A stretch of DNA of 64,000 nt from Lineus longissimus. Its lineage: Eukaryota; Nemertea; Pilidiophora; Heteronemertea; Lineidae. The notes below the pieces were generated by a model. The model had not been told where the DNA came from. It was given only the letters and a program-made list of their open reading frames with translations, and ran no database searches. A program made the translations under genes and the position numbers. This document shows positions 2,886 to 31,969 of this stretch, one piece after another (the stretch's first letter is position 1; each line of letters opens with the position of its first letter). Location: assembly GCF_910592395.1 (NCBI RefSeq), contig NC_088311.1, positions 18,292,501 through 18,356,500 of the forward strand, in the 5' to 3' direction.

Positions 2886-3086
2886 ACAAACTGACGAATT
2901 TTAAGATCTTGATAGATGAAAATCTCTGCCATCATGAAACTGGAACAGTACAGTTTAGTCGAGCACAAGAAATTAAATGTGACTCGCCGGGTCCTGTTGT
3001 CGGAAGACGCCTGAAGATCCAACGAATGGAACCATCGTCTGCTCTTACATTGTGCGAAGTGAGCGTACAGGCTTTCCAATATAGAG
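2886..3086 (+). CDS. Gene 1 exon: C-terminal half of F-type lectin (fucolectin) domain
   Basis: The acceptor TTTCGTCATTGCAG precedes 2886 and the donor GTGCGT follows 3086; the exon is phase 1-1 and codes about 67 residues. The reading includes RRLKIQ and LTLCEVSV, matching the conserved ends of F-type lectin domains (a late Cys in a TLCEVEV-like strand, preceded by a GRY(V/I)-like strand). The N-terminal half, with the fucose-binding His/Arg residues, must lie upstream, so binding ability cannot be judged here. Confidence 0.75.
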
Positions 3087-6000
3087 GTGCGTGTAGGCAA
3101 GGTCACGGTATTGACCTATGCAGGGTTTTTCACTTTATCTCCTCCCTCACAGCCTTATTGCTCCTATACTTCTGCATTTTGTCAGCATGTGTTCGTGTAG
3201 CGTTCGACTGAGTTACCTAGTAAATGACTAGTACACTAACGAGCATGGTAAATCACACCTTTGTCATGTTTGTCAGCAGCATCACAACCCTAATAAATTG
3301 ATGCAGCTGTATTATACCAGTCTGAAGTTGTTTAACACAGGCTGTAGAATTCTAATTTATTGAACTTTAAGTACATCTTTCAGCATGCCAAACCAAGCGC
3401 TATGGCCCCAACTGCAACAACCGATGCCAATGTGCCAATGATGACACGTGTGATGACAAGACAGGACAGTGCCCATCTGGGTGTAAAGATTTTTTCACAG
3501 GCCCTTACTGTAACATAGGTACGTAAGGAATGAACCTTAAGAAGGACCATTGGTATTATTAAGGGTAATATTACCCAGCTGTCGGCTGCCCAGTCACCTC
3601 CTATTCTACAAGCAGTTTCCATCAACAAATTGCACAAAAGAAGGAAAAATTCGAAATCTGACTGAATTATCACGCTTTTCCGATGTTGACTCCGATTTGA
3701 CCCGCGAGTTAGCTCTCAATGCGTCGATCCTTTCCATGTGGAACGATGCACTAGCAAGGTTCTTCCTGGAGCCATGGATCTATCCTAAGCCTACAACTGC
3801 CTCGTCCCAAGTCATTGCGCCTCGATCCGCCAGTTCCTGACGCATGGTAGGATTGTAGCTACGTTCCATCCACGGAGGTCCGGTAATGGATAGCTTCTGG
3901 AGATTCTCCATGAACTATCCATGGATTGCCCATGGATGGAATGTTCATGATTAATCCCCATCAACTATCCGTCGACGGAGACTTTTGCCTGTGTACTGAA
4001 AAAGAAGACATTGTAAATTTCGCATGGTTCCTGCGTGATTATATTCCACAAGTTGAAGATATGCCAACTTCGTTATAACCTTGAACTCTATTGAAATTGA
4101 TCATTAAACTTCAAAACAACACAAACATATATGTTGTTTTGTTTCATGCTTCTGTCTTTCCTCCTGCAAGTTGAGATATATACCAGTTGAATTGGTATAA
4201 ATTGTAGATAGTGTAAAAATGGTTGAATCTTCTGCTCAGTCCCGTCATTTACTAGCGATGCTGTTCTTTGATCTGTTGAAATTCTGAAGATACATGTTGC
4301 CTTTCTGCTTTTTCCAGCAATTACCTGCGACCCACCGTCACGACTGTTAAATGGAAAAGTTTCTACCACCTTTCTAGCAACCGTTGGTTGGTTCGTGAGT
4401 TACAAGTGCGACAAAGGCTTCGTTCTCGAAGGGAAAGAGAATTCAACCTGTGTCGAGAACGTTTACGGTCCTGGTAATGTGGCAGACTCAACTCCCGTCT
4501 GTAGAGGTGAGACACACTCAAAGGGAAAAGAAACCTGCACTCCTTGACTAATAGAGTCTTATTCAGCGTGTGCTATGAGTCAGTTCCGCCAGCAATATCC
4601 GTCTCTGCTAAATGGGCAAGTTGGTGCCCCGAAGGCCGCTGTTCTAGGCTCATTTAAGGGGGGTTATCAGTAGGTAAAGGACATCGTTTTGCACAAGGAC
4701 GGTCCTACCACGAAGACTGCAATTCTAGGATAAGCAGTCACTTATCAGTTCGTCAAAGGGCATCGTTTTGGAAGTAAGAGCTGGCCAAGGACGGTCATGG
4801 TAATTTGAAAGAGAAATTGGCACACCCGACGTCTCTGAGTGTAGGCCCATGGGAAAAGGCACTCTCCTTGCCTTGTTAGAAAAAATGTTCATATGCAAAG
4901 CGCGTGCTGTCTTTTAATCAGAACTGTACATGACTCGAATGGAATTAACCTTGTTAGAAGTTTTGTCTTTTCTTCTTTCCAGCAATAACCTGCGACCCAC
5001 CGTCCTTAACAAATGGACAAGTGTCTGTCCCAAAGCCTGCACTTCTAGGTTCAGCCGTTAGCTACCAGTGTAACACAGGTTACGTTCTAGAAGGGAAAGA
5101 GAGTTCCACCTGTGTCGAGGTTGGGACTGGTAATGTTAAAGGGAGCTGGGCTGACCCGACACCCGTGTGCACAGGTAAAACGTACATTTCATACAAAAAG
5201 AGGTTATTTTCATGTTTTTGTCCTAATAAGGACTTTGTTTGATACACGACTCAAAGCATCTTCACCTGGCCAGCAATGGTTTTTTTTTTCTTTTCCAGCA
5301 ATAACCTGCGACCCACCGTCCCTAACAAATGGACGAGTGTCTGGCCCGAAGCCTGCACTTCTAGGTTCAGCCGTTAGCTACCAGTGTGACACAGGTTACG
5401 TTCTAGAAGGGATAGGGAGTTCTACCTGTGTCGAGGTTGGTCCTGGTAATGTTAAAGGGAGCTGGGCTGACCCGACACCTGTGTGCACAGGTGAGACGTA
5501 CATTTCATACAAAAAGAAGTTCTTCTTATGTTTTTGTCCTGATAAGAAATTTGTTTGATACACAACTCAAAGCACCTTCACCTGGCTAACAATCGTTTTT
5601 TGTGTTCTTTTCCAGCAATAACCTGCGACCAACCGTCCCTTACAAATGGACGAGTGTCTGGCCCGAAGCCTGCACTTCTAGGTTCAGCCGTTAGCTACCA
5701 GTGTGACACAGGTTACGTTCTGGAAGGGAAAGGGAGTTCCACCTGTGTCGAGGATGGGACTGGTAATGTTAAAGGGAGCTGGGCTGACCCGAAACCCGCG
5801 TGCACAGGTAAGACGTACATTTCATACAATAAGAAGTTCTTCTTATGTTTTTGTCCTGATAAGAACTTTGTTTGATACACGACTCAAAGCATCTTCACCT
5901 GGCTAGCAATGGTTTGTTTGTCTTCTTTTCCAGCAATAATCTGCGACCCACCGTCCCTAACAAAAGGACAAGTTTCTGTCCCGAGGCCTGCACTTCTAGG

Positions 6001-9000
6001 TTCAGCAGTTAGCTACCAGTGTGACACAGGTTACGTTCTAGAAGGGAAAGGGCGTTCCACTTGTGTCGAGGATCAACCTGATAATGTTAAAGGGAGCTGG
6101 GCTGACCCGACACCCGTATGCACAGGTAAGACGTACATTTCATACAAAAAGAAGTTCTTTTCATGTTTTTGTCATGATAAGAACTTTGTTTGATACACGA
6201 CTCAAGGCATCTTCACCTGGCTAGCAATGGTTTTTTTGTCTTCTTTTCCAGCAATAACCTGCGACCCACCGTCCCTAACAAATGGACAAGTGTCTGTCCC
6301 GAAGCCTGCCCATCTAGGTTCAGCCGTTAGCTACCAGTGTGACACAGGTTACGTTCTAGAAGGGAAAGGGAGTTCTACCTGTGTCGAGGTTGGGACTGGT
6401 AATGTTAAAGGGAGCTGGGCTGACCCAGCACCCGTGTGCACAGGTAAGAGTTTGACAGTGACAACGGTATTCCCCTGAAGACCTACGGCGTTCGTTAATG
6501 AATATGAAACTTTGCAATTGCATGTACATGTACATGCACGTACCGGTACTGAATATAAATATATGAGGAGGAAAGGAAGGTCCTAATTATATTCAAGGGC
6601 AATGGACTGACCCGACACCTGTGTGCACAAGTAAGATAACTCATGTCTATGGATGGGAACTTTCCCTTTAATGCTAGAAGATATTCATCATTTGCTTGAA
6701 TTAGGAGTTAGGGTTTCTTTTTTTTCTTGAGTTATTCGTTATCATCATGCCGTTTAGAACTTCAAAATGTCTTTGCCTGTATAGAATGTCCGGGCCACAA
6801 TATTCTGTTCTGTCCTTCGATATTTAAAGCTATTGGCAATCATAATACCCTCCAAAGATGTATTAATATTATACCATGATCTGTCAGAATACAATAGGGC
6901 TGGACTTTTTTTTCCATGGGGATATGTTCTACTTCTACACTGGTGTAGTATAGTTCTCTAGAGGCCATGACCGTTGATAGCTCAGAGATTGTGGAGCAAA
7001 ATAGAACCTTGGGCTTTTGCCCTGCCATTGTTTGTCTTATTTTCCAGCAATATGCTCTGTGAACCACCGTCTCTAATAAATGGACGAGTTCCATCCCCAA
7101 GCCGGTTAAACAATTTTGAATGTTTCCCCTTGATCATGTTTGTTTAAAACCCTGAAACACCAGATTGACACCTATTTCTCTGTTTCTACCGTTGGAAGCT
7201 CATTGCCTCTCTAGCTGTCTATCGCATTTTATGGAAACAACGACATATGTGGAAGAAAAATCACACGTTACTTTGGCACCGCTCAATTCAGCCGTGCGTT
7301 TACCAGTCAGACACGGATCTTTGCCTGAAGCGTCTGTTACTTCCCTAAGAGGGAAAAGCGCACTGCAAGGCGGGAAATTCATTGACGGAAATGAATTCTT
7401 TTGACGTTGTAAATTTGCCCCATGTTTGGCCCTGATCATTATCAATACTGATACATGTATGATTCATATTCCATCCATAAATTGCAACACGTCACTCTTA
7501 CTTAATGGACAAGTATAATTAACCGGTGAACATAGCACCCATGGCACGACAGTGATCTTTATAGCCGATTAAGTCTTCATTCTCGAAGGGAAGACGAATT
7601 CTACGTGTGTTTACGCAGATCCGAACAGCGCCAAGGGAAAGTGGTCAGAGCTGTTCGGTTGTTGGTCAAATAGGACCTGAGTTAATTATTTGTTACAACA
7701 TGTATGGTGCTGGCTTGTGGTGGACGCCATCAAGAGACTTGTTTACAAACACAGTTTATTTTAGGCCTATGCACTTACCTTCTTACGTAAGTGCATAGGT
7801 TCATTTTATTAGTTTTCTACACTCGGCCATTCGTGTGCAGAGCTCTGTGGTGTGGAGACCAGAAGAACGTTTGCTCCTGTTTCTCCTTCTTGGACAATTT
7901 ACTCCAAGGTTCGACGTTTGTGATTAATTCTTTCCAAGCCTATAAATGGAAAGAATGCTTTTCTAACTGTGTGTCGGGCTGTGTGTCTCGAGGGATATTT
8001 CAAACTATGTATTGGCACAGACCGACATAGACTCGTGCACATGTGATACAGCTATTTCGTAAAGTCGTTTAAAACAAGTCTCTGTGGCGGCCGCAAGGAG
8101 GGGCACTTTACGTTTACGTGTACGTGTACGTGTTGTCGTACTTCCTGTTGGATGTGTACTTCCTGTTTGTCATTCAAGGCCTTCGTAAACCGTGACTTCT
8201 CTTTGTCACTCACTTCCGTTACCGGACTTGCACTCATCCTGTTCTTTTTCGTGACGTCATATCTACATGTACATGACTGTGTTTCTACTGGCGGATGTGT
8301 CTTCAGTTACAGACGGAGCGAACTTCTCCTAGCATTCAATGAGCTCTGGTGGTGTTGACACTTATAATATGTTTATGTTTACCTAGCTTGTTCCTGTTAT
8401 TGTGAATAAAGTGTGTTTGTGTATTTGTGTAAAACAGCTTCAGGGTTTGTGTTTCTTCTGGTAATTTAGTAGTGTTTTTTCATGTAGCTATGGTACATTG
8501 GTCTCTCCGACCGGATTTTTTCATCCAGATCACATTCTTCGAGGCTGTTTTGCTGATAAATTTTTCTTTCCAGGAGCATATTTCATTGGTGATTGTTTGT
8601 TGTCTTTGAAGAGATCTATGTCACAAGTTCATGCATTTCTGACATCACTTTTCATACCTACATGTATTTCATAGCGTACCGGTTGTGTGAATGCGTCATG
8701 TGCGTGCAACGTTACGTTTGCGTCATTGTAATGTAAATGAGTCATGTGCGAATGCGTCTTGTGTGTGTCACTGTGATTGAGATGTGAATGAGGTGTTTCT
8801 TGTTTCTTACATTTTCATTTACAATTCTGGTGTGGTCGTTTTGTGCGTGTCATCACTATTCACACGGCATATTTCATTCGGTACGACATTTTGGTATCAT
8901 GTTCTATTCAATGAGTTAGAGTTGTGTATTGCAAAATGGGCCAAATGCAGATAAGTGCATTTGTTATTTTCAGTTGTTTGAGCAACGGTGCTCTGGTCAT

Positions 9001-12000
9001 ATAATTTGATGATGTGTTGCATATACATGTACTCTTATAGTGATCAGTTACGTTACGTGTGTTTCATTCATTCACTGGTATTAATTTGTTACGTGACATA
9101 TTTGTGCATAAGGTAGTGTTGAGCCGAGGACTATCGGGTGTAGAGATTCTAAATAAGAATCTAAGTATTTCGTCGTGGGTTTAAGTGGAGAACCTTTGGA
9201 GCATACTTGTCGAGATTGGCACTAGCTGATTAGAAACGGTGCGTGCCAATTGCGACCGGTCATCTCGTATAAAGCATTTATTGTGCGGTGTAAAACATCC
9301 TCCCCTCAGTGTGTCTTTATTTTAATACTCAAGTACAATAGTACAATATGGCGGCAAGTTTAAATGAGTTGCTTGAGAAGAGGCGAATCACCAGAGGTCG
9401 CTTCACAAAATATATCACTGTGACAGATACAGCTGCTAAGGAAGCTGAAACACTTGTTGCTGATGATGAGTCTAATGAAAAAGATGTGCATATAGCGATA
9501 CGTACAGCTCTTTCTTCATTCAAAAGGGTTGAGGAAGTTTATGGGGAGTTATCAGGAGTGCAGGATCAAATAGATTATCATGCAGACAATGATGCTCGCC
9601 TAAAAGCGGTGAAAGATGATGATGGTGAGGTGAGATACCTCAAAGCGTACAATCATATGTGTGCTTCGATACAAGGGTTAGAGGCATGTTTATCACCTGT
9701 ACAGGAAGCAAGTGAAGCATCCGGAAAATCTGCTAAATCTGAGTTCAGCCCGGAAATGTTTGCAGAAAGCTTGTCAAAGGCTCTCGCCGGAGTGAACACT
9801 GGCGTTTCTAAGACACAACTAGAAGAAATTCTTTCTACGCTGACGCACAAGAAGCGAGTTATTCAGATCCCAAAATTCAAGGGCGATACTGAGCTATTTG
9901 ATCAATGGCGAGATCTTGTGGGTGCAGAGGTTAGAAAACCTGGGTACAGTGACGTCGAGAAGACTCATGTTGTAATTTCATTACTCGATGGAGAGGTAGC
10001 AAAGTTGGTGTCTGGTTTGAAAGACCCAAGCTACGAGGAAATAATCGAGTTCTTAGAGAATCGTTACGGAGATGTGTTAGCTCGCATTGAGAAGGCTGTC
10101 AATGAGATAGCTAGTGTTCCAGTTGTAAAAAGTCCCACAGTTCGAGAGTTGGATCCTGTGCTGAACACACTGGTGGCAAACTGGAATTACATTAAGAAGA
10201 GGACACACGATGACCCAGAGCTCATCCGATCTAGTTGGATTCTCACTGCGTTAGTAAGGAGGAAGATGCCGAAGAGTTTGGTGAGAAAGTGGGACAGCGA
10301 ACGAATCAAAGAAGAAAAGAGAACGACAGCTCCGTCCAACCTTCCAATTCGAATTGACGACTTGATCGAGAAGATCCAAGATGCAGTGAAGGTTGCTAGA
10401 AGGTCAGAGTCCCTTCCAAACGATCCAAAAAAGGAAAGATCATTTGAAAGGCGTCCATCTGGCCACGCCTTGAATGTGATCCCACAAACACAGGAGAGTA
10501 CCGAAAGTCGGTGTGTCTTTTGTGATAATGCACACCAATCCTATTCGTGTCCGTCCGTTTCCAAGATGCGTGTTGAGGAGAGATGCGAGCGTGTGAAAGC
10601 AGCAAGGGCTTGCTTCAATTGTTTGTCGAGATTCCACATGGTAAAAACATGTCGATCTAGGGGATGCAAATCGTGTAAGAAGAATCACCATACTTTGCTC
10701 CACTTCGAGAAAAGAAGTGGAAGTGACAACGCTGCGAGAAGTAATGTATCAGGTTCTTCTAACCTTACATCAAAGGTACCACATCAGAACAAAGTTGAAT
10801 CGACTGCAGGACTGGTCAAGTCTACTGGTTCAACGAATGTCGTCATGCAGAGCGGCATAGTCAAACTTGAGTCAAAGTCTAGGGTTGCGGAAGGTCGCGT
10901 GTTACTGGACACCGGGAGTGGTGTTACGTTCATTAGCCGTTCAATGGCAAAAAGATTGAATTTGAGAGGCCCCAAGGTTGAAGGTGAGTTCATCTTGGCA
11001 GGTGGAGAGGTGATGGCTACCACTACTGAGAAGGTCAAGTTCTATCTATCGGGAATTCTTCCTGGCTGGAAGGGAGAAGTTTTCGAAATTTCTGCGTACA
11101 TTTTGGACAAGCCAAGTGCTCCGATAAATGCTGTCAACGTGGATTTCACCAAGATGAGTCATTTGAGGGGTCTACAGCTCGCGGAAAGATTTCCTATCCA
11201 GGCAAACTCTGAAGTGGATGTTCTTCTGGGCATTGAAGACACTCTCAACATCTTAAAAGAGAAGAGAATCAGAGGGCCTCCAGGAACGCCCATGGCACAG
11301 AAGACTCACATAGGCTGGATCCTATGTGGGCCGTACTCAACCCAGACCGAAGTCAACCGTACTTATTGTGTCCACCGCGTCAGCTTCCAAGAACAAAATG
11401 AAACTGAGATGGCAACCCGTTATTGGGACCTTGAACACCTGGGCATTCGTCCTAATGAGAGTAAGAACTCGACTGAACTTGAGACTTCGGCCTTGGAGCA
11501 ACACCGAATGATGACAACACGAGTAGGAGACCATTATGTGACTGGATTACCACGTCATCCAAGTTACAAGGATAGGATCCTCAAAAGCAACAGAGCCTTA
11601 GCTACCAATCGTCTAATAGGACTCGAGAAGAGACTGAAGAGAGACCCCAGATTAGCATCCGAGTATGAAGCTCAGATTCAAGACCTGCTCTCAGCTGGAA
11701 GAGCCGAAAAGGTATTGGAGGATAGAGAGCCTGACAATCATCAGGTTTGGTACCTTCCTCACCATCCAGTCGTGCGAAGAGATAAGACGACGACCAAAGT
11801 GCGTGTTGTTTTTGATGGGTCCATGATTGGATATGAAGGTGTATCGTTAAATGAGACATTGCTGCCAGGGCCAGCATTGCAGCCGGATCTCCCAGGGGTT
11901 TTGTTGCGATTTAGACGCCACAGAGTGGCATTAGTGGCTGACATCGAGAAGATGTTCCTTCAAGTTAAAATGAGAAAAGAGGATCAGGATTCTCAGAGGT

Positions 12001-15000: not shown

Positions 15001-18000
15001 TGGTCAAATAGGACCTGAGTTAATTATTTGTTACAACATGTATGGTGCTGGCTTGTGGTGGACGCCATCAAGAGACTTGTTTACAAACACAGTTTATTTT
15101 AGGCCTATGCACTTACCTTCTTACGTAAGTGCATAGGTTCATTTTATTAGTTTTCTACACTCGGCCATTCGTGTGCAGAGCTCTGTGGTGTGGAGACCAG
15201 AAGAACGTTTGCTCCTGTTTCTCCTTCTTGGACAATTTACTCCAAGGTTCGACGTTTGTGATTAATTCTTTCCAAGCCTATAAATGGAAAGAATGCTTTT
15301 CTAACTGTGTGTCGGGCTGTGTGTCTCGAGGGATATTTCAAACTATGTATTGGCACAGACCGACATAGACTCGTGCACATGTGATACAGCTATTTCGTAA
15401 AGTCGTTTAAAACAAGTCTCTGTGGCGGCCGCAAGGAGGGGCACTTTACGTTTACGTGTACGTGTACGTGTTGTCGTACTTCCTGTTGGATGTGTACTTC
15501 CTGTTTGTCATTCAAGGCCTTCGTAAACCGTGACTTCTCTTTGTCACTCACTTCCGTTACCGGACTTGCACTCATCCTGTTCTTTTTCGTGACGTCATAT
15601 CTACATGTACATGACTGTGTTTCTACTGGCGGATGTGTCTTCAGTTACAGACGGAGCGAACTTCTCCTAGCATTCAATGAGCTCTGGTGGTGTTGACACT
15701 TATAATATGTTTATGTTTACCTAGCTTGTTCCTGTTATTGTGAATAAAGTGTGTTTGTGTATTTGTGTAAAACAGCTTCAGGGTTTGTGTTTCTTCTGGT
15801 AATTTAGTAGTGTTTTTTCATGTAGCTATGGTACAAGAGCCAACGCTTGTTCGCAAAAGTAGGTTCAGCACTACCGGACATGATTGACCAATTTCCTTCC
15901 CTCCCATATTAAAATATTTTTGTTGTGGTTTGAAATAATTTTGAGATGGTCCTTTATAATGTATTGTATTGTTCTTTTTTCTAGCTATTACCTGTGAACC
16001 TCCTGTCATATCAAACGGACATGTATCAGTCATCAAACCAGCCTTGTATGGGTCAACTGTAACCTATCATTGTAACCAAGGCTTTGTTCTGGATGGGCAA
16101 GGGAGCTCAAAGTGTATTCAAAATGGAACTGACAATGTTTATGGGAAATGGACTGACCAGACGCCTGTGTGTAAAGGTAACGTTACTCTAGAGAGAAAGC
16201 TTTCCTCATTTCCTTTCTACATTTCCCCATTTTTGGCCTTCATCATTATCATTATCGATACAATCCCTTACTTTAATTCTTTTTCCAGCCATAAGTTGCG
16301 ACACACCATTTTTACTGAATGGACAAGTAATAGCGGGTGGTCAAAGTACCCATGGCACGACAGTGATCTTCAAATGCAACGACGGCTTCATTCTCGTAGG
16401 AAAGACGAATTCTACGTGCGTTCATGAAGATCCAAAAAGCGCCAAGGGAAAGTGGTCAGAGCCAACGCCTGTTTGCAAAAGTAAGTCCAATGCCAACAGC
16501 ACAAGATTGGCCAGTTGCCATCCCATACACCCATGATAAACATTTAATTTGTTTGTGGTTTAAAGGAATTTTGAGATGGTCCTTTATAATGTAGTGTTGT
16601 ATTCTTCTTTTCTTTTCTAGCTATTACCTGTGAGCCTCCTGTCATACCAAACGGATATGTATCAGTCATCAAACCAGCCGTGTATGGGTCAACTGTAACC
16701 TATCATTGTAACCAAGGCTTTGTTCTGGATGGAAAAGGGAGCTCAAAGTGTAGTCAAAATGGAACTGACAATGTTTATGGGAAATGGACTGACCAGTCGC
16801 CTGTGTGTAAAGGTAAAGTTCCTCGAGATTGAAAGCTTTTTCCATGTCTTTTCTTCATTTTCCCAATGTTTGGCCCTCATCACTATCATTATCAATACAT
16901 GCACTGTGATTCATTTTCCAGCCATAAGTTGCGACAAACCATTGTTACTGAATGGACAAGTTATAGCGGGTGGTCAAAGTACCCATGGCACGACAGTGAT
17001 CTTTAGGTGCAACGAAGGCTTCGTTCTCGAAGGAAAGACATATTCTACGTGTGTTCATGAAGATCAAAACAGCGCCAAGGGAAAGTGGTCAGAGCCAACA
17101 CCTGTTTGCAAAGGTAAGTCCAATGCCTACCGCACACGATTGGCCAATTGCCTTCTCATGCATCCTTAATGAACATTTAATTTTTTTTTTTTTTGGAGGA
17201 ATTTTGACATGGTCCTTAATGTTGTGTTGTATTCTTCTTTTCTTTTCTAGCTATAACCTGTGAACCTCCTGTCATATCAAACGGACATGTATCAGTCATC
17301 AAACCAGCCGTGTATGGGTCAACTGTAACCTATCATTGTAACCAAGGCTTTGTTCTGGATGGGAAAGGAAGCTCAAAGTGTAGTCAAAATGGAACTGACA
17401 ATGTTTATGGAAAATGGACTAACCAGTCGCCTGTGTGTAAAGGTAAAGTTCCTCCAGAGAGAAAGCTTTCCTCACTCCTTTTCTACATTTCCCCCATGTT
17501 TGGCTTTGATCATTATCATTATCGATACAATCCCGTACTTTGATTCCTTTTGCAGCCATAAGTTGCGACACACCATTGTTACTGAATGGACAAGTAATAG
17601 CGGGTGGTCAAAGTACCCATGGCACGACAGTGATCTTTAGATGCGACGAAGGCTTCATTCTCGAAGGAAAGACAAATTCTACGTGTGTTCATGAAGATCC
17701 AAACAGCGCCAAGGGAAAGTGGTCAGAGTCAACGCCTGTTTGCAAGGGTAAGTCCAGTGGCTACCGCACCCGATTGGCCAATTTCCTTCCCATGGACCCA
17801 TGATAAACATTTAATTTATTTGTAGTTTGAAGGAATTTTGAGATGGTCCTGAATGTTGTGTTGTATTCTTCTTTTCTTTTCTAGCTATTACCTGTGAACC
17901 TCCTGTCATACCAAACGGATATGTATCAGTCACCAAACCAGCCGTGTATGGATCAACTCTAACCTATCATTGTAACCAAGGCTTTTTTCTGGATGGGAAA

Positions 18001-21000
18001 CAGAGCTCAAAGTGTATTCAAAATGGAACTGACAATATCTATGGGAAATGGACTGACCAGTCGCCTGTGTGTAAAGGTAAAGTTCCTCCAGAGAGAAAGC
18101 TTTCCTCATTTTTTTCTACATTTCCCCCATGTTTGGATTTGATCATTATCATTATCAATACAATGCCGTACTTTGATTCATTTTTTTCTCAGCTATAAGT
18201 TGCGACACACCATTATTACTGAATGGACAAGTAATAGCGGGTGGGCTAAGTACCCATGGCACGTCAGTGATCTTTAGATGCGACGAAGGCTTCATTCTTG
18301 AAGGAAAGACAAAATCTACGTGTATTCACGAAGATCCAAACCGCGCCAAGGGAAACTGGTCAGAGCCAACACCTGTTTGCAAAGGTAAGTCCAATGCCTA
18401 CCGCACACGATTGGTCTATTTCCTTCCCATGCACCCATAATAAACATTTAATTTGTTTATGTTATGAAGGAATTTTGAGATGGTCCTTAATGTTGTTATC
18501 CGAGGCTTTGTTCTGGATGGGAAAGAAATCTCAAAGTGTATTCAAAACGCAACTGACAACGTTTATAGGAAATGGAATTACCAGTCGCATGTGTGTAAAG
18601 GTAAAGTTCCTCCAGGTTGTAGGCTTCCCCATGTTTCTTCGACATTTTCCCCGTGAGAGGCCCTGATCATTATCAATACCAATACTTCATTTTCAAGCCA
18701 TAAATTGCGACACGCCATTCTTACTGAATGGACAAGTAACAGCGAGTGAGCTAAGTACCCATGGCACGACTGTAAATTTTAGATGCTATGAAGGCTTCAT
18801 TCTCGATGGAAAGACAAATTCAACGTGTGTTCACGAAGATCCAAACAGCGCAAAGGGAAAGTGGTCAGAGCCAACGCCTGTTTGCAAAGGTAAGTCCAAT
18901 GCTTATGTGCACGATTAGCAGGTTTGCGAGGGCAGTTGAAGATGTGGTAGCATTTTCTTGCGTCTCCCTATGGAAGTTGTCATGTCTGCAAAACATATGT
19001 TCATGTGAATGGTATTTTTTTTACAGCAACTACATGTTTGCTGCCCCAATTAAAAAATGGACAAGTGTCTGTTGGAAAACCCCCAAAAATTGCTCATTTT
19101 AAAAAACCGAAGGAAATTTCGTAATCCGTCCAAATAAAAACCAGGAATACATGTTTTGTAATTGTCATGTAGAGGCGCGAAAATGTTGGGATTAATAGTA
19201 GACTAACTGTACCTTATCTACTATTGCAGTCATTACATGTGAAGAACCGAAGTTAAAAAACGGAAATGTCACAACTGTAGTCAGTCCTGCAACATTTAGT
19301 TCAGTCGTCAACTATACATGCAACGAAGCTTTCGTATTAGAAGGAGCGTTCAATTCCACCTGTACCCAAAATGGCACTGAAAATGTGAAAGGAGAGTGGT
19401 CAGAACCATCGCCTACTTGTAGAGGTAAGCACCCAAGCAAGGAGAATGCAGCATAACGTTCGATCGCGATAGTCGGGAAAATGTTTCCACGGACATCTGC
19501 TTTACACCAGTAACTAGTGCGCACATTCGCTGCAAGATGAGCAAGCTGATGGGGACCTTCATAGAAAAAGTTGGCGCTTAATAGTTCGCGTGTTACTTAA
19601 ATGAGTTCGAAGCACGATGTTATCAAATTCATTCAGCTCAGTTTTTCGTAGGCAATAACTAAACGGTCGCGGTCACATATTTTTGTGCGACCAAGCGACA
19701 TATTCACTCATACAATGTCCGAGATTCAGAGAGCGTTTGACCCTTAAAGGCTCTGATCGTGGGCTGCGGACAGGACGTCGATAAATACCAAAGGCCTTGG
19801 GGGTCGGGGACTTTGCTTATTTTTTTATGGACCAACATGTGAGTATGGACCCAGCACATTGCCCTCACCACAGAAATATACTTTGAGCACCTACCCACCA
19901 TCTATAATGCCTATTAAACACTCGCTTCTATTCTACTCTCAAGAAATTACCTGTGACCAACCCGTTCTACAGCATGGTAAAGCATCCACAAGTTCCTTAC
20001 AATATAATTCAACAGTAACATACAGCTGCGAGGAGAACTATTCTCTTACTGGGAAGGCAAAGTCCACTTGCGTCCAGGAGGATAAAACTAGCATCAAGGG
20101 TGTGTGGGCTGATCCAATACCGATTTGCACAGGTGAGAACCTTTTGGCAATTTCTGATAAAAGTTTTCTTCGTCTCCTTAGTCGTGGTTTGTTGGTGAAT
20201 TTTACATGTCTTCTGTTGGTTATCAGAAATAACTCTGATGTATGACTTCGTGATGCTAGATTTATCATGTATCTTAGCATAAAGGTACTCAATTTGATTT
20301 GATTCACAGATTTAGAGTCACCCTCATCGACCATTGATCACGTGGATGGAAACTTTGGAGGACGCGCAAACACGCGTAAGTTGTGATCATTTAAAAAATT
20401 GAGAATGAGTAAATTATAGACTTAACCGAGCAATTAAATGGACGTTCCATTGCGTGTTATATACGACTAGCATTATACCCGTGGCACAGGCAGGTTCAAA
20501 TGGGCTAAACCTTGAATTGCATGGGCCGAAAGATTGAATGGCAATGATAATCTAATGCAATATCAAAGGGGCCGTATCGACGAGACAAATTAAACAAACG
20601 AATTGTCCACAGACAGGGACCCTGTTTTGTTGCTTGCATATCAAAGTATGTCAATTGGTCTGATAGAGACGATGACGCAATGTCAACATGCATCGTTCCT
20701 TTGTCAGCAATACGGAGAAGAAGAAGAACTCAAATAGGCCTTCACATGTCATGTCTGCTGCCCAATGGTTCGAACCGCTTACACTATCACTACAACTATA
20801 ACTTCAAAATGCGTGTTGCTCCTAGCAAGGTCTCGGGCAAGGCACTTAGTCGACAGGCAAGCTGTAGGTTCAGCACCGTGAGCAGCACCGTGAGCAGCAC
20901 CTTGATAGGCCATGCCAAGAGAGCCTCCTCAGATACATCAAGTATTGAAAGCTGTAGACAGACCATGGTCACCTTCATTTGAAAATCTCTTCATGTTGTG

Positions 21001-22668
21001 ATACATTTTATTCGATCTTGGTGAAATCAATTCGCCTAACGGGTACCAGGTGCAACGTATAATATCACATGGGCACACATGGTCATTAGTGTTTGAATGC
21101 ATGCCATACTCCACGCGGTGATATAAGTCAAAATGTCTGCTTTGGAGACTTCCTTGGGTTCAGGGTCAATGTTATATTCAATCCACGATTGCAGGTCACG
21201 TGATGTTAATAAACGGACGTTGTCCACACTTTCGCATTTCAATACCGAATATGGATATGCATGGACTTTTATGCAATTACTGGCAAGAATGATAATCTCA
21301 GATGCATTACTCTAATCATGTAACTTACTACTTCATCAGAGGCTTATGCTTGCATTTTTCAAGTGCTGACCCAAATGAGGTAAAAAACGCAAATTTCGAG
21401 TTCCTTGTACATTGTGCGATTTGAAGATTTTCGAATATAAAGTAATGCAAAATGAGGAAAAGCCAGGTTTTTCATTGTGTGTTCCTTTCACAATTCCCGA
21501 GCCAATAGAGAACAATCGGGATGGCATGGCCTAGCCCCCCCCCCCCCCCCCCCCCATATTACTGCAAACTCGGTCATGACCACATTTTCCCTTGCTGCAT
21601 GTATACCGTGAAAATGTTTAAACCTCTCTATTAAAGTTGTTTACATAACTTCTTTTTTTACACCTTAATAGTTTTAAAACCTCTCTCTTGGTGTCTTCTT
21701 TGTTATATCTATTTTCAGGATCAGCAATGAACATCGGAATTGATATTGGCTGCGCGACAGTTGTTCTCGTCTTGGTTTCCATTGGTATTATGTTGGCAAT
21801 TAAAAAGAAAAGGTACATGTACGTGATTTCTATTTTCAAAATTGTACCAACTGGCAACTTTCACGGTGTGATCGTGTTCAAAGCAATTAAAGTCTATCAT
21901 GAAGTTTGCCTGAATTTAATTCGGCCTTTCAATTCTGATGACTTGTTTCGATGAGAATCCCAGGTTATTTCAGACGCCTTTTATAAAACGTGAGGCCGAA
22001 CCCCAATGCCGAACTATCATTCTGTCAAACACTGTCCCTAAAATTGTTCGCACCTTTTAAGTGGACCACGTAGTTTATTGCAGTTTTTCCAATAGAAACA
22101 AATATGGCTATTTATTATTCTCGCGAATTGAGGTTATATTTGCAAAATTCGCGAGAATTCACCAAATCCGACAGTTTTCAGTATTCATTTGATCAGAAAA
22201 TTTGTAATTCAGCTTCATCGTCGGCCTTCTTTGCATATTGTAGCCGGTTTGTCGAACTTTTTGTAGGCCTATGCAGTGTAAACAGCACATTATGCTATCT
22301 CCATATTAGCGATTAACGCAGTGTTTTGCATAGAGAGGCTCAATTTCCTCAGACATTGGTCTAGAGCCTGATATTCAAATGTCGCCTTGCTGGAATAAAA
22401 CCACACAGTGCCTGCGGACAGGGCCTAAATCGTGGTGTTAAACGATAAGATAGTTCTTTTTGGTCTAATAATTCATACATTTTGTTTGTCTTGTCTGATA
22501 TTTTCCAGTCGGGAAAGCCAACCACATGAAACACCTGAAGAAGACCCACCTGCCAAATCCAACGTGACGGACTACCAGAACCCACTTTACGATATGGAAG
22601 AATGGGACGGAGGACAAAACGAAACAAGGGGCAGTCCTCATGAGACGTTCCGCCTAGATGTTGTTTGA
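2886..22668 (+). CDS. Gene 1: F-type lectin-EGF-CCP array-TM receptor (5' end outside window)
   Basis: The exon chain predicts a type I membrane protein. In order it has the C-terminal half of an F-type lectin, one EGF-like module, 17 open CCP modules, a 22-residue stalk, a transmembrane helix and a tail of about 55 residues ending at a TGA. All junctions from the lectin to the TM exon are phase 1; the TM-tail junction is phase 2. F-type lectins bind fucose, and CCP rods in selectins and complement regulators act as spacers or binding sites. A role in cell-surface glycan recognition, adhesion or immunity is therefore my inference. The CCP array is broken by fossil exons and by the BEL element at 7652-15835. 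That element would be transcribed inside an intron of about 9.5 kb (6444-15984). The signal peptide and start codon lie left of the window. Confidence 0.8.
3384..3518 (+). CDS. Gene 1 exon: EGF-like module
   Basis: Acceptor TCTTTCAG, donor GTACGTAAG, 45 codons, phase 1-1. Cysteine-rich with an opening CQTKRYGPNC and a closing GPYC, the pattern of MEGF/scavenger-receptor-type EGF repeats. Its place straight after the lectin and before the CCPs mirrors selectin order. Confidence 0.8.
   Translation, partial: HAKPSAMAPTATTDANVPMMTRVMTRQDSAHLGVKIFSQALTVT
3519..4317 (+). other. Intron of gene 1
   Basis: No exon or repeat is supported. It contains several CCATGGAT-like short palindromes around 3840-3980 but nothing I can assign. 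Confidence 0.5.
4318..4506 (+). CDS. Gene 1 CCP exon, type R, Trp-less
   Basis: Acceptor TTTTTCCAG, donor GTGAGA, 63 codons, phase 1-1. The four CCP cysteines are present. Compared with its sister exons at 49930 and 55241, it has lost the segment holding the invariant CCP tryptophan and has gained VY. The frame is open, but folding is doubtful. Confidence 0.7.
4590..4810 (+). pseudogene. Fossil CCP exon
   Basis: GCAATATCCGTCTCTGCTAA begins a CCP-like start followed by AAATGGGCAAGT, but stops and indels destroy the frame and there is no donor. The same fossil follows each of the other two type-R exons (50200 and 55510), so it decayed before the blocks were duplicated. Confidence 0.7.
4983..5174 (+). 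CDS. Gene 1 CCP exon, type E1
   Basis: Acceptor TTCTTTCCAG, donor GTAAAA, 64 codons, phase 1-1. It encodes one complete CCP with four Cys and the Trp in GSWADP. An ITCDPP opening and TPVC close bracket the domain. Confidence 0.9.
5299..5490 (+). CDS. Gene 1 CCP exon, type E2
   Basis: Acceptor CTTTTCCAG, donor GTGAGA, 192 nt, phase 1-1, complete CCP. It differs from E1 by a few substitutions, for example GRVSG for GQVSV. Confidence 0.9.
5616..5807 (+). CDS. Gene 1 CCP exon, type E3
   Basis: Acceptor TTCTTTTCCAG, donor GTAAGA, 192 nt, phase 1-1. All four Cys and the Trp are kept; the closing motif is KPACTG instead of TPVCTG. Confidence 0.9.
5934..6125 (+). CDS. Gene 1 CCP exon, type E4
   Basis: Acceptor CTTCTTTTCCAG, donor GTAAGA, 192 nt, phase 1-1. 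The opening is IICDPP, and the mid-loop reads EDQPDN rather than EVGTGN. Confidence 0.9.
6252..6443 (+). CDS. Gene 1 CCP exon, type E5 (last of the E array)
   Basis: Acceptor TTCTTTTCCAG, donor GTAAGA, 192 nt, phase 1-1, complete CCP. The unit's intron ends abruptly after the donor, marking the array edge. Confidence 0.9.
6593..7110 (+). pseudogene. Fossil E-type CCP pieces
   Basis: Around 6593-6631 only the 3' end of an E exon remains (GGCAATGGACTGACCCGACA then a mutated donor region). Around 7046-7110 only a 5' end remains: TTTTCCAGCAATATG followed by a shifted CTGTGAACCACCGTCT. Neither can be spliced as a full CCP. Confidence 0.65.
7475..7651 (+). pseudogene. Fossil type-B CCP exon, left part, split by BEL insertion
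   Basis: It resembles B exons from ATAAATTGCAAC onward but has no AG acceptor and gains an in-frame TAA soon after the LLNGQV region. The remainder (CAACGCTTGTTCGCAAAA then GTAGGT) lies at 15841-15858, beyond the retrotransposon. A sister fossil sits at 57005-57173. Decay is thus probably older than the insertion. Confidence 0.85.
7652..8497 (+). repeat. BEL 5' LTR
   Basis: TG...CA ends. It contains an AATAAA at about 8403 and a 13-bp-arm hairpin at 7766-7778/7787-7799. It appears identical to 14990-15835 at an offset of 7338. Confidence 0.95.
8499..8516 (+). promoter_or_regulatory. Candidate primer binding site
   Basis: TGGTCTCTCCGACCGGA begins one or two bases after the LTR, where the tRNA-complementary PBS of an LTR element sits. 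I cannot name the tRNA. Confidence 0.5.
8517..9347 (+). other. BEL 5' leader
   Basis: About 830 bases between the PBS and the gag-pol start, with no conserved frame. This is the expected place for packaging and leader signals, but none is recognised. Confidence 0.6.
9348..14777 (+). CDS. BEL/Pao gag-pol polyprotein, 1809 aa
   Basis: Single open frame without stops. Gag-like helical region of DUF1759 type: about residues 100-350. Zinc-knuckle cluster: from C389 (CVFC...), CFNC near 422 and CKSC near 440. Aspartic protease: DTGSG at 521. Reverse transcriptase: KVRVVFDGS near 818 and the catalytic FVDD at 942-945. RNase H: FGDACEASYG near 1120 and WTDSQVVLHW near 1197. Integrase: H-H/C-C zinc region near 1448-1485 and catalytic D1516, D1581, E1629. 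A Pao-type C-terminal domain (LRRRPVQKLRLLEP) closes the protein. All key catalytic residues are present. No envelope gene follows. The initiator is the first ATG of the long frame. Confidence 0.97.
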   Translation: MAASLNELLEKRRITRGRFTKYITVTDTAAKEAETLVADDESNEKDVHIAIRTALSSFKRVEEVYGELSGVQDQIDYHADNDARLKAVKDDDGEVRYLKAYNHMCASIQGLEACLSPVQEASEASGKSAKSEFSPEMFAESLSKALAGVNTGVSKTQLEEILSTLTHKKRVIQIPKFKGDTELFDQWRDLVGAEVRKPGYSDVEKTHVVISLLDGEVAKLVSGLKDPSYEEIIEFLENRYGDVLARIEKAVNEIASVPVVKSPTVRELDPVLNTLVANWNYIKKRTHDDPELIRSSWILTALVRRKMPKSLVRKWDSERIKEEKRTTAPSNLPIRIDDLIEKIQDAVKVARRSESLPNDPKKERSFERRPSGHALNVIPQTQESTESRCVFCDNAHQSYSCPSVSKMRVEERCERVKAARACFNCLSRFHMVKTCRSRGCKSCKKNHHTLLHFEKRSGSDNAARSNVSGSSNLTSKVPHQNKVESTAGLVKSTGSTNVVMQSGIVKLESKSRVAEGRVLLDTGSGVTFISRSMAKRLNLRGPKVEGEFILAGGEVMATTTEKVKFYLSGILPGWKGEVFEISAYILDKPSAPINAVNVDFTKMSHLRGLQLAERFPIQANSEVDVLLGIEDTLNILKEKRIRGPPGTPMAQKTHIGWILCGPYSTQTEVNRTYCVHRVSFQEQNETEMATRYWDLEHLGIRPNESKNSTELETSALEQHRMMTTRVGDHYVTGLPRHPSYKDRILKSNRALATNRLIGLEKRLKRDPRLASEYEAQIQDLLSAGRAEKVLEDREPDNHQVWYLPHHPVVRRDKTTTKVRVVFDGSMIGYEGVSLNETLLPGPALQPDLPGVLLRFRRHRVALVADIEKMFLQVKMRKEDQDSQRFLWRGLDKSKEPEVYRLTTVTFGLTSSPFSSIQTILDHVKTKKESYPKAVAEIEDNIFVDDVLTGEELVEDAATLTTDLKTVLYDGGFSLRKFISNKPEALSHLEERDLASFHKVATFAEESTKTLGVKYSPREDVLMFSFLERMDDRPVETRRSVLQQLHRVYDPLGMLSPFTIKAKQIFQRTWLTQGTWDDPLPEELDHEWRTWKEQVEILDEIKVPRCLKPEDFQNPIYSLHGFGDACEASYGSAIYLLAEDRPSGRKYSTLLFSKTRLSPIGKRRSIPELELIAALINARLVTYVRNELKLLIEKTICWTDSQVVLHWISKPAYTWQVFVANRVSEIQQLVRPLNWRYVPGKLNPADLCSRGVTARAVVDSALWWDGPLFLRQKETEWPPIIVVSNEAEKANEKKKTTSTSLAVLPSQRIKDSEVEQYVEKFSDYEKFIRVMMRLRSWITLYRRDKANKDVDTVRDEGSDRLSERRKEELHWIQWAQEKHFQKEIQKLKAGESVEKTSVIVQLNPYWDKRSRVIRVGGRLNYAPLPEEVKHPIVLPTHNSFVKMLVMHYHKITLHPGAAQTLASLRNRYWIVHGKQEVRRILNTCKTCREPLKIDQRMAPLPEERISIAPAFTNVGVDFAGPLFVRVTVGGESTSKVYICLFSCMVTRAIHLELVETLTTEQFMLALRRMMSRRGRCRMMLSDNAKTFKKASDIVQKIFKKQDDVRDKLEQEGIRWKFITERAPWHGGFYERMVGSVKRPLKKVLGKSKLTQIELMTVLTEVEAMVNSRPLTMVSSDTEDWLPLTPGHLAIGRSPQSLPEVDKVTAQTTLGKRWRYQQSLMKQFWNRWTTEYLLQLQQMRKWTDVRDNLQVGDVVFLAEEGMRKGDWTLAKVEELHPGRDNLVRSVTVRTAAGLRRRPVQKLRLLEPVDNQ
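14979..14989 (+). promoter_or_regulatory. BEL polypurine tract
   Basis: AGAGGGGAGGA lies immediately before the 3' LTR, the standard position for plus-strand DNA priming. Confidence 0.85.
14990..15835 (+). repeat. BEL 3' LTR
   Basis: 846 bp, TG...CA ends, apparently identical to the 5' LTR. It is followed by TSD copy AGAGC. Confidence 0.95.
15841..15858 (+). pseudogene. Right remnant of fossil B exon interrupted by BEL
   Basis: CAACGCTTGTTCGCAAAA followed by GTAGGT is the last part of a type-B CCP exon. It lines up with the left part ending at 7651 once the element and one TSD are disregarded. Confidence 0.85.
15985..16176 (+). CDS. Gene 1 CCP exon A1
   Basis: Acceptor TTTTTTCTAG, donor GTAACG, 192 nt, phase 1-1. 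One complete CCP with a QNGTDN sequon before the Trp (GKWTDQ). Confidence 0.92.
16289..16480 (+). CDS. Gene 1 CCP exon B1
   Basis: Acceptor TTTTTCCAG, donor GTAAGT (last exon base A), 192 nt, phase 1-1. Complete CCP with a TNSTC sequon and Trp in GKWSEP. Confidence 0.92.
16621..16812 (+). CDS. Gene 1 CCP exon A2
   Basis: Acceptor CTTTTCTAG, donor GTAAAG, 192 nt, phase 1-1. Complete CCP; opens ITCEPPVIPNGY. Confidence 0.92.
16922..17113 (+). CDS. Gene 1 CCP exon B2
   Basis: Acceptor CATTTTCCAG, donor GTAAGT, 192 nt, phase 1-1. The usual NSTC sequon is YSTC here, so this module lacks the B-type glycosylation site. Confidence 0.92.
17251..17442 (+). CDS. Gene 1 CCP exon A3
   Basis: Acceptor CTTTTCTAG, donor GTAAAG, 192 nt, phase 1-1, complete CCP (GKWTNQSPVC close). 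Confidence 0.92.
17556..17747 (+). CDS. Gene 1 CCP exon B3
   Basis: Acceptor CCTTTTGCAG, donor GTAAGT, 192 nt, phase 1-1, complete CCP with the NSTC sequon. Confidence 0.92.
17885..18076 (+). CDS. Gene 1 CCP exon A4
   Basis: Acceptor CTTTTCTAG, donor GTAAAG, 192 nt, phase 1-1. Complete CCP with FFLDGK in place of FVLDGK. Confidence 0.92.
18193..18384 (+). CDS. Gene 1 CCP exon B4
   Basis: Acceptor TTTTTTCTCAG, donor GTAAGT, 192 nt, phase 1-1. The sequon is lost (KSTC); otherwise a complete CCP. Confidence 0.92.
18497..18600 (+). pseudogene. Truncated type-A CCP exon
   Basis: Only the second half of an A exon remains (from GAGGCTTTGTTCTGGATG), joined directly to intron sequence without an acceptor. 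Its donor GTAAAG survives. Loss of the 5' half removes two cysteines. Confidence 0.85.
18698..18889 (+). CDS. Gene 1 CCP exon B5
   Basis: Acceptor CATTTTCAAG, donor GTAAGT, 192 nt, phase 1-1, complete CCP. It is more diverged than B1-B4 (ASELST, YEGFILDG). Confidence 0.88.
19026..19095 (+). pseudogene. 5' half of a CCP exon
   Basis: The acceptor TTTTTTTACAG is followed by an open start encoding TCLLPQLKNGQVSVGKPP. The sequence then runs into A-rich DNA with a stop and no donor. A still more reduced version stands at 54424-54446 in gene 2. Confidence 0.65.
19230..19424 (+). CDS. Gene 1 CCP exon, penultimate
   Basis: Acceptor CTACTATTGCAG, donor GTAAGC, 65 codons, phase 1-1. Complete, diverged CCP with four Cys, the Trp in GEWSEP and four sequons (NVT, NYT, NST, NGT). 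Confidence 0.92.
19511..19829 (+). repeat. Intron block shared with gene 2 (54447-54765)
   Basis: From TAACTAGTGCGCACATTCGC to CTTATTTTTTTATG the two blocks match with scattered differences. In gene 2 the block is fused to material matching 18900-19040. The CCP exon at 19230 has therefore been deleted from that copy. Confidence 0.85.
19944..20132 (+). CDS. Gene 1 CCP exon, last (membrane-proximal)
   Basis: Acceptor TTCTACTCTCAAG, donor GTGAGA, 63 codons, phase 1-1. Complete CCP with four Cys and the Trp in GVWADP. It is not part of the tandem families and so is probably an old, fixed module. Confidence 0.92.
20310..20375 (+). CDS. Gene 1 exon: juxtamembrane stalk
   Basis: Acceptor TTGATTCACAG, donor GTAAGT, 22 codons, phase 1-1. 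A polar Ser/Asp/Gly-rich segment (LESPSSTIDHVDGNFGG) without Cys, typical of a short stalk between the last CCP and the membrane. Confidence 0.75.
20467..20994 (+). repeat. Dispersed repeat family R500, copy 2 (empty DIRS site)
   Basis: It matches copy 1 and the split copy 3. It keeps the full right end (GACCATGGTCACCTTCATTT), which copy 1 lacks. AAAATGC is intact at 20806-20812. It lies in the intron before the TM exon. Confidence 0.85.
21535..21555. repeat. Poly-C run of 21 bases
   Basis: Uninterrupted C tract in the intron before the TM exon; its length is likely unreliable. Confidence 0.95.
21719..21812 (+). CDS. Gene 1 exon: transmembrane segment
   Basis: Acceptor CTATTTTCAG, donor GTACATG, phase 1 in and phase 2 out. 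About 22 hydrophobic residues (IDIGCATVVLVLVSIGIMLA) are followed by IKKK, a stop-transfer signal, giving a type I topology. Confidence 0.92.
22509..22668 (+). CDS. Gene 1 last exon: cytoplasmic tail and stop
   Basis: Acceptor GATATTTTCCAG; it starts at phase 2, matching the TM exon, and ends at TGA. The acidic tail contains DYQNPLYDM, an NPxY motif recognised by PTB-domain adaptors and endocytic machinery, with two tyrosines that could be phosphorylated. It ends RLDVV, possibly a PDZ ligand (weak). Confidence 0.9.
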
Positions 22669-27921: not shown

Positions 27922-28860
27922 TTATAAAACACGGATATATTTTCTGAAGGCATCGGATGACCACCTACCTGCTGTCCGGATGTAGGCATCGGATTTGCCC
28001 TCGATTGCGGATTGTGTTGCAGCCCCAATTCGCAAACTGTGCCCCTTAAAGCGGGAAGAGTCTAGACCGCAGAGAGAAAGTGCACGCTTGAGTGTACCGT
28101 CGAAGTCCTTGCGCAGGAAAGGAGAGCCACCGGGATGGCAGAAAAGCAGCCCGGGTGATAAACCCCGTACAGCCAAAAAGCCCCTCACGTGTTCTAACGG
28201 GCAAAATTGCGACCTAGCAAGACGCAAGGTTTGAGAGCCTTGTGTGTTGCTAGACTTAAATCTTCGAAAAGATACCAGGAGCCCATCGGATTCGACCGTC
28301 AGGTCGAACAAGTGAAGGCAGTTGGCTAGACGGGATTTAGTCGAAGGGAGCATCTCTCTCACCCTAAGAAAGGCACTCAAACCAAGTACTAGGGCAGTCT
28401 GAAACATGACCGAGTTATAGTGTGAGGGCGTAACAAGTGGGGCCGCAACCAATAATTTGGAAAGGATTTCCCTGGTAACGGGCAAGCGGACATCCGGGTG
28501 CGCACGCAAATGTTTGGCGGCGCAAAGTAATTTAGCCACAACGAATGATTTGGTCGGGTCAGCCATGTCATTAAGCTTATGTAAATAGGATATAGCCGAC
28601 ATGATGGACGCAATAGACGAAGGGGAATACCCACGGCCGTGCAAAAAGGCAATGAAAAGAGTAAAAATGGGCACCGAAATAGGAAGACATAGTTTCGTTT
28701 TGATGTAGTCGTTGAAAAATTGAGCGAAAATGTCCCAGGTCCTACGATAAGCCACCATAGTGGACGATGCAACCATGTTACTGCGCAATTCACTCAACGC
28801 AGATTCCATCCATCCGGGTAAAGCTCTTGAGGAATCGGTGTGGGCGTTGGGTCCGCCCAA
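27922..28860 (-). CDS. Tyrosine recombinase (Ngaro-like), 312 aa
   Basis: An intact frame with the complete tyrosine recombinase signature: R166 (FLRVREM), H274-x-x-R277 (GHSLR), W300 (GRW) and the nucleophile Y308 (FRKY). The N-terminal ~130 residues resemble a core-binding SAM-like helical domain. In intact elements it would integrate the circular cDNA by site-specific strand exchange. The frame begins just inside the left TSD of the Mutator-like insertion, so its natural upstream context is broken. It overlapped the RNase H frame in another phase before the insertion. Confidence 0.88.
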   Translation of the reverse strand: MGGPNAHTDSSRALPGWMESALSELRSNMVASSTMVAYRRTWDIFAQFFNDYIKTKLCLPISVPIFTLFIAFLHGRGYSPSSIASIMSAISYLHKLNDMADPTKSFVVAKLLCAAKHLRAHPDVRLPVTREILSKLLVAAPLVTPSHYNSVMFQTALVLGLSAFLRVREMLPSTKSRLANCLHLFDLTVESDGLLVSFRRFKSSNTQGSQTLRLARSQFCPLEHVRGFLAVRGLSPGLLFCHPGGSPFLRKDFDGTLKRALSLCGLDSSRFKGHSLRIGAATQSAIEGKSDAYIRTAGRWSSDAFRKYIRVL

Positions 28861-28875
28861 GGCGCCCGTTTGCAG

Positions 28876-29946: not shown

Positions 29947-30261
29947 CGTTTGCAGAACGCATGTATCTGTAAACGAGAAAGCATGTCAGCTAATACATTC
30001 TTTTTCCCAGGAATATGCTTTGCTCTCACAACGATATTATGCACGAGGCAGGCTTTTACCAGGGACCGTACCAGGGACATTATCTGCGGTTCTTTAGATG
30101 TTTGTTTGTTTATGACGGACACTATGGCTTGGTTATCAGTGAAGAATACTATGTTCTGGTTGGCCCAATTTTTGCCCCATATCAAAAAGGCTAACACGAT
30201 AGGGAACAGCTCCAATGTTGCGATGTTAAACTGTCTCCATGCCGCGGGCCAGATCCCGTAA
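29947..30261 (-). pseudogene. RNase H C-terminal part of Ngaro-like pol
   Basis: On the minus strand an RNase H-type frame reads LELFPIVLAFLIWG, then FFTDNQAIVSVINKQ, then KHIPGKKNVLADMLSR, the acidic and His-containing blocks of Ngaro/DIRS RNase H. It is preceded by WPAAWRQFN and cut off at 30270. Its 3' end is interrupted by the Mutator-like element. Confidence 0.85.
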
Positions 30262-30272
30262 AACCAATGAGT

Positions 30273-31908: not shown

Positions 31909-31969
31909 ATGAGACAGTTTCTCCATTTGATTATTTTCTGGAGTGTTCTTTTTTCTGATATCTTAGCAG
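31909..31969 (+). CDS. Gene 2 exon 1: signal peptide
   Basis: ATG in a good context (AACAAAATGAG) opens 20 residues. A short positive start (MRQ) leads into a hydrophobic core (LIIFWSVLF) and a small-residue end (ILA), then donor GTAGGT at phase 1. The next exon supplies Ala/Ser, giving a standard cleavage site. Confidence 0.75.

Follow-up and report, generated by a model that had tools for sequence, protein, structure and literature searches.

A probable Lineus longissimus membrane receptor combining a phosphatase-type lectin-EGF head with a CCP array

The DNA analysed here, called the window, is a stretch of 64,000 nucleotides from Lineus longissimus with a GC content of 38-52% in 4-kb steps. 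On its plus strand, between positions 2886 and 22668, 22 exons could be joined into a single open frame of 1304 amino acids, which is incomplete at the 5' end. The modules encoded are, from the N to the C terminus, the C-terminal half of an F-type lectin, an EGF, 17 CCPs, a stalk, a transmembrane (TM) segment and a tail of 52 residues carrying an NPLY motif. A sequence-only reading of the same DNA had proposed that the pieces join in one frame and that the order is lectin-EGF-CCP-stalk-TM-tail. The exon chain bore out the first proposal, and the second was upheld by the exon chain together with the Pfam Sushi matches and the TM hydropathy.

The chain opens with a lectin-type exon of 201 nt (2886..3086, phase 1-1), which resembles the C-terminal half of an F5/8C domain and starts at a Lys, the third basic position of the fucose motif. 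The EGF exon (3384..3518, 135 nt, phase 1-1) encodes eight Cys and is of the laminin/stabilin type. All 17 CCP exons lie between 4318 and 20132, six of them before and eleven after a long intron. CCP exon 1 (4318..4506), assigned by Pfam and by DNA homology to the neighbouring CCP gene, is without the usual Trp segment. It is followed by five exons placed by the exon chain and Pfam (4983-5174, 5299-5490, 5616-5807, 5934-6125 and 6252-6443). Beyond the intron, nine CCP exons of 192 nt each (15985..18889) start at 15985, 16289, 16621, 16922, 17251, 17556, 17885, 18193 and 18698, and CCP exon 16 (19230..19424) and the membrane-proximal CCP exon 17 (19944..20132) were again placed by the exon chain and Pfam. 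The 3' part consists of a short stalk exon of 66 nt (20310..20375), the TM exon recognised by hydropathy (21719..21812), in which a KKK stop-transfer signal comes after the TM, and the exon of the 52-residue cytoplasmic tail with the stop codon (22509..22668), which was placed by the exon chain. All of these exons are on the plus strand.

An AG precedes each of the 22 exons and a GT follows the first 21. The first 20 exons are in phase 1-1, the TM exon is 1-2 and the tail begins in phase 2. As a control, the minus strand was scanned over all 64 kb for phase 1-1 exons of 120-210 nt that are free of stops and have a pyrimidine tract and a common donor; four candidates were obtained and none of them had at least seven Cys, thus chance could be ruled out for the exon chain. 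In the assembled protein Pfam recognised 17 Sushi stretches (425.6 bits against a cut-off of 20.7, E 2e-130), while the EGF exon stayed below the cut-offs of both EGF_STAB1-2 (19.8 bits, cut-off 27) and EGF_laminin (19.6 bits, cut-off 21) and the lectin exon was not recognised. Over 19 residues, the TM reached a hydropathy of 2.73, against 1.04 in the next-best stretch of the protein. With multiple Sushi domains above the Pfam cut-off and a TM, the product has the composition of a CCP receptor. The NPLY noted earlier in the tail is indeed there, as a single NPxY in the form YQNPLY, and no YxxPhi motif was found in the 52 residues. NPxY motifs bind PTB adaptors.

Since the lectin exon alone gave no Pfam match and no match among PDB sequences up to E 10, its resemblance to F-lectins could at first be taken for chance. 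The assignment of this half depends on its relatives, the nearest of which is 92% identical. In order to find them, residues 1-174 (lectin-EGF-CCP1) were searched against 5.8 billion proteins, with candidates of about 717-2282 residues. Four proteins were returned from 45 candidates, all of them from Lineus longissimus (P0001-P0004). P0001 is SVEP1-like, and P0002-P0004 are annotated as receptor-type tyrosine-protein phosphatases, epsilon-like and T-like, P0002 being epsilon-like. The lectin-EGF part of the window has 102 of 111 residues identical with P0002; the counts for P0003 and P0004 are 79 of 112 and 75 of 113, respectively. The window gene thus carries the lectin-EGF head of the Lineus phosphatases. 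Past the EGF, P0002-P0004 continue with FN3 and phosphatase domains, whereas no phosphatase domains follow the TM of the window gene, the tail of which has only 52 residues.

In P0002, P0003 and P0004 this lectin half is preceded by a kringle, located at residues 148-214 in P0003 and 146-217 in P0004. In the intact P0003 and P0004 the F5/8C match spans the first half of PF22633 (positions 2-42 and 2-41 of 91), with the kringle after it. When the kringle was deleted in silico, the score rose from 36.8 to 47.2 bits in P0003 and from 35.2 to 45.1 in P0004, and the match ran through the model (2-91 and 2-90 of 91). The kringle-deleted P0003 domain, 71% identical to the window over the C-terminal half and EGF, gave 11 PDB matches at E values up to 10. 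The top six are F-lectin-type (E 9.4e-25 to 9.8e-06): FBP32 (3cqo, 9.4e-25), the lectin 1k12 (4.4e-15), which we take to be the eel lectin, two Sm-hPAF entries, presumably F-lectin domains, and two fucolectin-related proteins. The other five are neuropilin-1, the best at 0.027. A generic discoidin domain was rejected, the six F-lectin-type sequences far outscoring neuropilin-1; chance resemblance was rejected through the matches of the relatives as well, and the F-type lectin named in the sequence-only reading was in this way retained as the probable assignment. The completion of PF22633 and the F-lectin matches after the deletion place the kringle of P0003 and P0004 inside the F-lectin fold, as judged from the sequences; in terms of the fucose motif, it comes after the position of the first Arg and before the closing basic residue.

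The lectin half of P0002 starts two residues past the last Cys of the kringle and the window exon begins at the same point, therefore the missing upstream part of the window gene probably includes a kringle. The P0002 model itself starts inside the kringle, so the public models in this phosphatase family may be incomplete; it lacks the N-terminal lectin half, and the fuller copies are P0003 with 1544 residues and P0004 with 1664. A search with residues 66-330 of P0003 returned 16 proteins from 390 candidates, with a kringle (PF00051) listed only in the three Lineus phosphatases. In literature searches no paper was found on a kringle together with an F-type lectin, nor on an F-type lectin in nemerteans. 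The head is unlikely to be a bare fucolectin, as the sequences closest to it are lectin-EGF heads of phosphatases that carry a kringle. A kringle in the F-type lectin loop that bears the sugar-binding arginines makes a domain-in-domain arrangement, and it would put to the test whether an F-lectin can change from sugar binding to another use.

The fucose motif of F-type lectins reads His...Arg-X-Asp-X4-Arg/Lys in the part of PMC5712786 that deals with it (section 8). The window covers the last basic residue of this three-residue motif alone, a Lys at 2888-2890, and the other two are expected upstream of it. In P0003 the motif His is kept (SCSHT), a Val aligns with the first Arg and an Arg stands one place later; in P0004 the three places are occupied, by eye, by His, Thr and Lys. 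The last basic residue is Arg in P0003 and Lys in P0004, P0002 and the window. The motif thus looks out of register in the two fuller phosphatases, P0003 and P0004. Since another residue is aligned with the first Arg in both (Val and, by eye, Thr, respectively), fucose binding is uncertain in this lectin family.

A second CCP gene starts at 31909 in the window. It has a signal-peptide exon (31909-31969), a Gla-like exon (about 33572-33751), a Cys-rich exon that is EGF-like by eye (about 36137-36259), a CCP at 38201-38383 and further CCPs from 49930 to past 63708, where the array leaves the window. This sister gene is a relative of P0001, the gene model of which joins these head modules to the CCP array; the N-terminal module of P0001 scored 11.5 bits with Pfam Gla, below the cut-off of 27. 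A Gla-like head, a weak match here, would be unusual on a CCP array. Between 41177 and 46477, frames that overlap one another match a reverse transcriptase (83.7 bits) and, below the cut-off, a tyrosine recombinase, which suggests a DIRS/Ngaro-like element in an intron of the sister gene.

Both P0001 and the sister gene share the CCP array with the window gene, and the window CCP exons are up to 98% identical to P0001. Their heads differ: Gla-like, Cys-rich EGF-like and CCP modules, with no lectin seen, and by eye no TM end was noticed in P0001. The DNA of the sister gene is homologous from 4211 onwards. The stretch 4211-5721 is 84% identical to 55152-56662, and 4217-4946 is 87% identical to 49846-50565, which sets the left edge of the homology at 4211..4217, inside the EGF/CCP-1 intron. 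At E<=1e-6 no plus-strand match begins upstream of 4211. A repeat at this place was considered and rejected, since at E<=0.1 the segment 3519-4250 matched only itself, apart from short inverted self-matches, within the window. As read from the DNA, there are two paralogous CCP arrays with different heads before the same intron, a pattern to be expected if exons were shuffled through a phase-1 intron. The join between the phosphatase-type head and the CCP chassis is likely at about 4211, in the EGF/CCP-1 intron.

Are the head and the CCP-TM exons parts of one gene? The exons of extracellular modules usually have phase 1-1. In-frame joining is therefore weak evidence for one gene, and the phases were dropped as proof of it. 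In order to see whether the head exons belong to a phosphatase gene with its body inside the window, ten phosphatase pieces (from the first EGF, the lectin N-terminal half, the kringle, the FN3 part and the phosphatase part) were compared with the window by tblastn at E<=1. Seven rows were obtained, and the only significant one was the first EGF on the window EGF (6e-10). The other six had E values of 0.20-0.97, those of the kringle and phosphatase pieces being 0.36-0.77. Since no piece from the FN3 part, the phosphatase part, the kringle or the lectin N-terminal half matched significantly, this possibility was rejected; with the EGF piece as the only significant match, no phosphatase body was found in the window to which the head exons could splice.

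The 799 bases between the EGF and CCP-1 exons were searched for a first exon with which the CCP gene could begin by itself. No signal-peptide-like exon was found in 3519-4317 (0.2 expected from reversed-sequence controls), and the same search recovered 31909-31969 of the sister gene. Between the lectin and EGF exons, one signal-peptide-like exon was detected (3118-3196, donor GTAGCG) against 0.05 expected, from which a lectin-less EGF-CCP start may arise. Among the proteins of about 717-2282 residues, no protein with both the head and the CCPs was returned (4 matches from 45 candidates). The tail search yielded one match out of 251 candidates, the CR1 of a bird, in which the CCPs were presumably what matched, and no Lineus protein with this tail. 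Since neither a head-CCP protein nor a Lineus tail was found, the chimera is not represented in the gene models that were searched.

The strongest rival explanation takes the lectin and EGF exons for an orphan fragment of a duplicated phosphatase gene, unspliced to an independent CCP-TM gene, or with only the EGF spliced to it. The identity of the head to P0002 at 102 of 111 positions, the lack of an annotated chimera within the length range searched, the abrupt edge of the CCP-gene homology at 4211, the signal-peptide-like exon at 3118-3196 and the phases, which would match by default, are all in keeping with such a fragment. Against it stand the intact lectin and EGF exons with canonical splice sites, the lack of an own start of the CCP gene in 3519-4317 and the lack of a significant phosphatase match in the window. 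We regard the orphan fragment as rather unlikely and consider it probable, with fair confidence, that the head and the CCP-TM exons form one gene.

For the locus as a whole the best explanation, in which our confidence is a little lower, is a CCP-TM receptor whose head was exchanged for that of a phosphatase. The product would be a type I surface receptor, the window containing the 3' part of its gene, with the signal peptide, the N-terminal half of the F-lectin and probably the kringle encoded upstream of the window. Its CCP array would be a member of the local CCP gene family. The head would have been taken from the lectin-EGF front of a phosphatase, or be shared with it by duplication, and the junction would have formed in the intron, at about 4211. 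The most likely role is that of a receptor for adhesion or recognition: the head, at the tip of the long CCP rod, would bind a ligand, either glycan or protein, and PTB/clathrin adaptors recruited by the NPLY tail would bring about internalisation. Since the head is almost the same as that of the phosphatases and the gene has no phosphatase, the receptor could compete with them for ligand; a function as a decoy receptor is conceivable as well.

A wider model, which we put forward tentatively and to which we give somewhat less than an even chance, is a family with swappable heads. At one intron position, the same CCP chassis would receive one of two heads, a Gla-like-EGF-CCP head or, from phosphatases of the same chromosome, an F-lectin-EGF head interrupted by a kringle. 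The receptor with the latter head would be a phosphatase-free decoy or partner for the same ligands, with a link to endocytosis. If transcripts confirm the head exchange, it would be a recent step in receptor evolution that can still be traced, since the donor family, the recipient family and the approximate join can be named.

A gene in decay, with the locus being lost and no functional receptor made, is an improbable reading, although it can overlap with the others. The CCP array is interrupted by an 8.2-kb Bel/Pao LTR element and dead CCP exons, which should lie in a single long intron, 6444-15984. The element (7652..15835, plus strand) has an uninterrupted frame of 1811 amino acids, a pair of 846-bp LTRs without any difference between them and a target duplication of 5 bp, AGAGC. 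In its frame, Pfam scores above the cut-off were obtained for the Pao peptidase and for the zinc-binding domain of the integrase, and scores below it for the integrase core and the reverse transcriptase. The insertion is recent, as the identical LTRs and the duplication indicate. Besides this insertion, decay would agree with the dead or partial CCP exons seen by eye at about 7050, 7480-7651/15836, 18500-18601 and 19027-19130 and with the degenerate CCP-1. The insertion site, however, is by eye a CCP exon with stop codons; since this exon was dead already, the element lengthens the intron without necessarily disrupting the gene. The main chain, with 22 open exons and intact sites throughout, speaks against decay. 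The pooled dN/dS of 0.34 (dN 0.057, dS 0.166) for 14 of the 17 CCP exons and their nearest sister-gene exons indicates that the CCP exons are under purifying selection, though the 14 exons share five distinct partner exons, so they are not 14 independent tests, and gene conversion is possible.

The preferred reading, a CCP-TM receptor with an exchanged head, can be compared with the known selectins. According to the part of PMC5820395 available, vertebrate selectins consist of a C-type lectin, EGF, CCPs, TM and tail. The window gene has the same order of lectin, EGF, CCPs, single TM and short tail, with the EGF models below the Pfam cut-offs. The vertebrate lectin is of the C-type, and two CCPs are given there for L-selectin and nine for P-selectin, against 17 in the window gene. 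A further mark of selectins is that they bind sialyl-fucosylated glycans in a calcium-dependent manner. No C-type lectin was found among the Pfam matches up to E 10 in the assembled protein (2886 onward). An F-lectin on a CCP rod with a TM is already known. In the available parts of PMC5712786 and PMC9954269, Drosophila furrowed and CG9095 are described with an F-lectin, CCPs, a C-type lectin and a TM, and Tribolium CTL15 with one F5/8C, eleven CCPs, a C-type lectin and a TM, the latter being called the sole selectin of the species. Like the window gene, these proteins, named selectins, combine an F-lectin or F5/8C with CCPs and a TM; unlike it, they have a C-type lectin in addition, and the same parts of the sources mention no EGF in them. 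The window gene has the F-lectin half, CCPs and TM of a furrowed-type selectin, and its Pfam matches contain no C-type lectin. Descriptions in the available part of PMC5712786 give an F-lectin with CCP and EGF-like domains in Nematostella; this protein and the sea urchin SpCRL resemble the window gene, by description, in the F-lectin and CCP and differ from it in other extra domains. The relatives P0002-P0004 share the lectin C-terminal half and EGF with the window gene; FN3 and phosphatase domains are theirs alone, and their kringle is not seen in the window. Three features seem new here: an EGF placed right behind the F-lectin while a C-type lectin is absent, the phosphatase-related head and the kringle in the fold.

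The selectin comparison is less new, as furrowed is an existing example of an F-lectin combined with CCPs and a TM (as far as the available part of PMC5712786 goes). The earlier idea that the selectin job was assembled independently from a different fold has to be modified, given the 102 of 111 identities of the head to a phosphatase and the known insect selectins with F-lectin, CCPs and TM. A true selectin analogue, with a working fucose site, no kringle, and rolling or adhesion like that of vertebrate selectins, shares their order of lectin, EGF, CCP, TM and tail (PMC5820395, in the part available) but is hardly probable, as the lectin exon begins at the second residue past the last kringle Cys of P0002 and the first motif Arg is aligned with Val in P0003 and, by eye, with Thr in P0004.

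Other elements and repeats were also noticed in the window. Between 25466 and 27649 seven nested inverted-repeat pairs, with arms 94-99% complementary and C/G runs, form a palindrome of about 2.2 kb, perhaps a foldback element. On the minus strand, a tyrosine recombinase-like frame (27925-28896, below the cut-offs) and an RVT_3 frame (29922-30299), presumably RNase H-like, are possibly the remains of another DIRS-like element at 27922-30299. Copies of a dispersed repeat with 76-96% identity occur in both orientations at 752-1240, 20468-20955, 47263-47618 and 40564-40716. Just upstream of the lectin exon, at 2138-2501, lies a tandem pair of repeats of about 180 bp, which are 95% identical.
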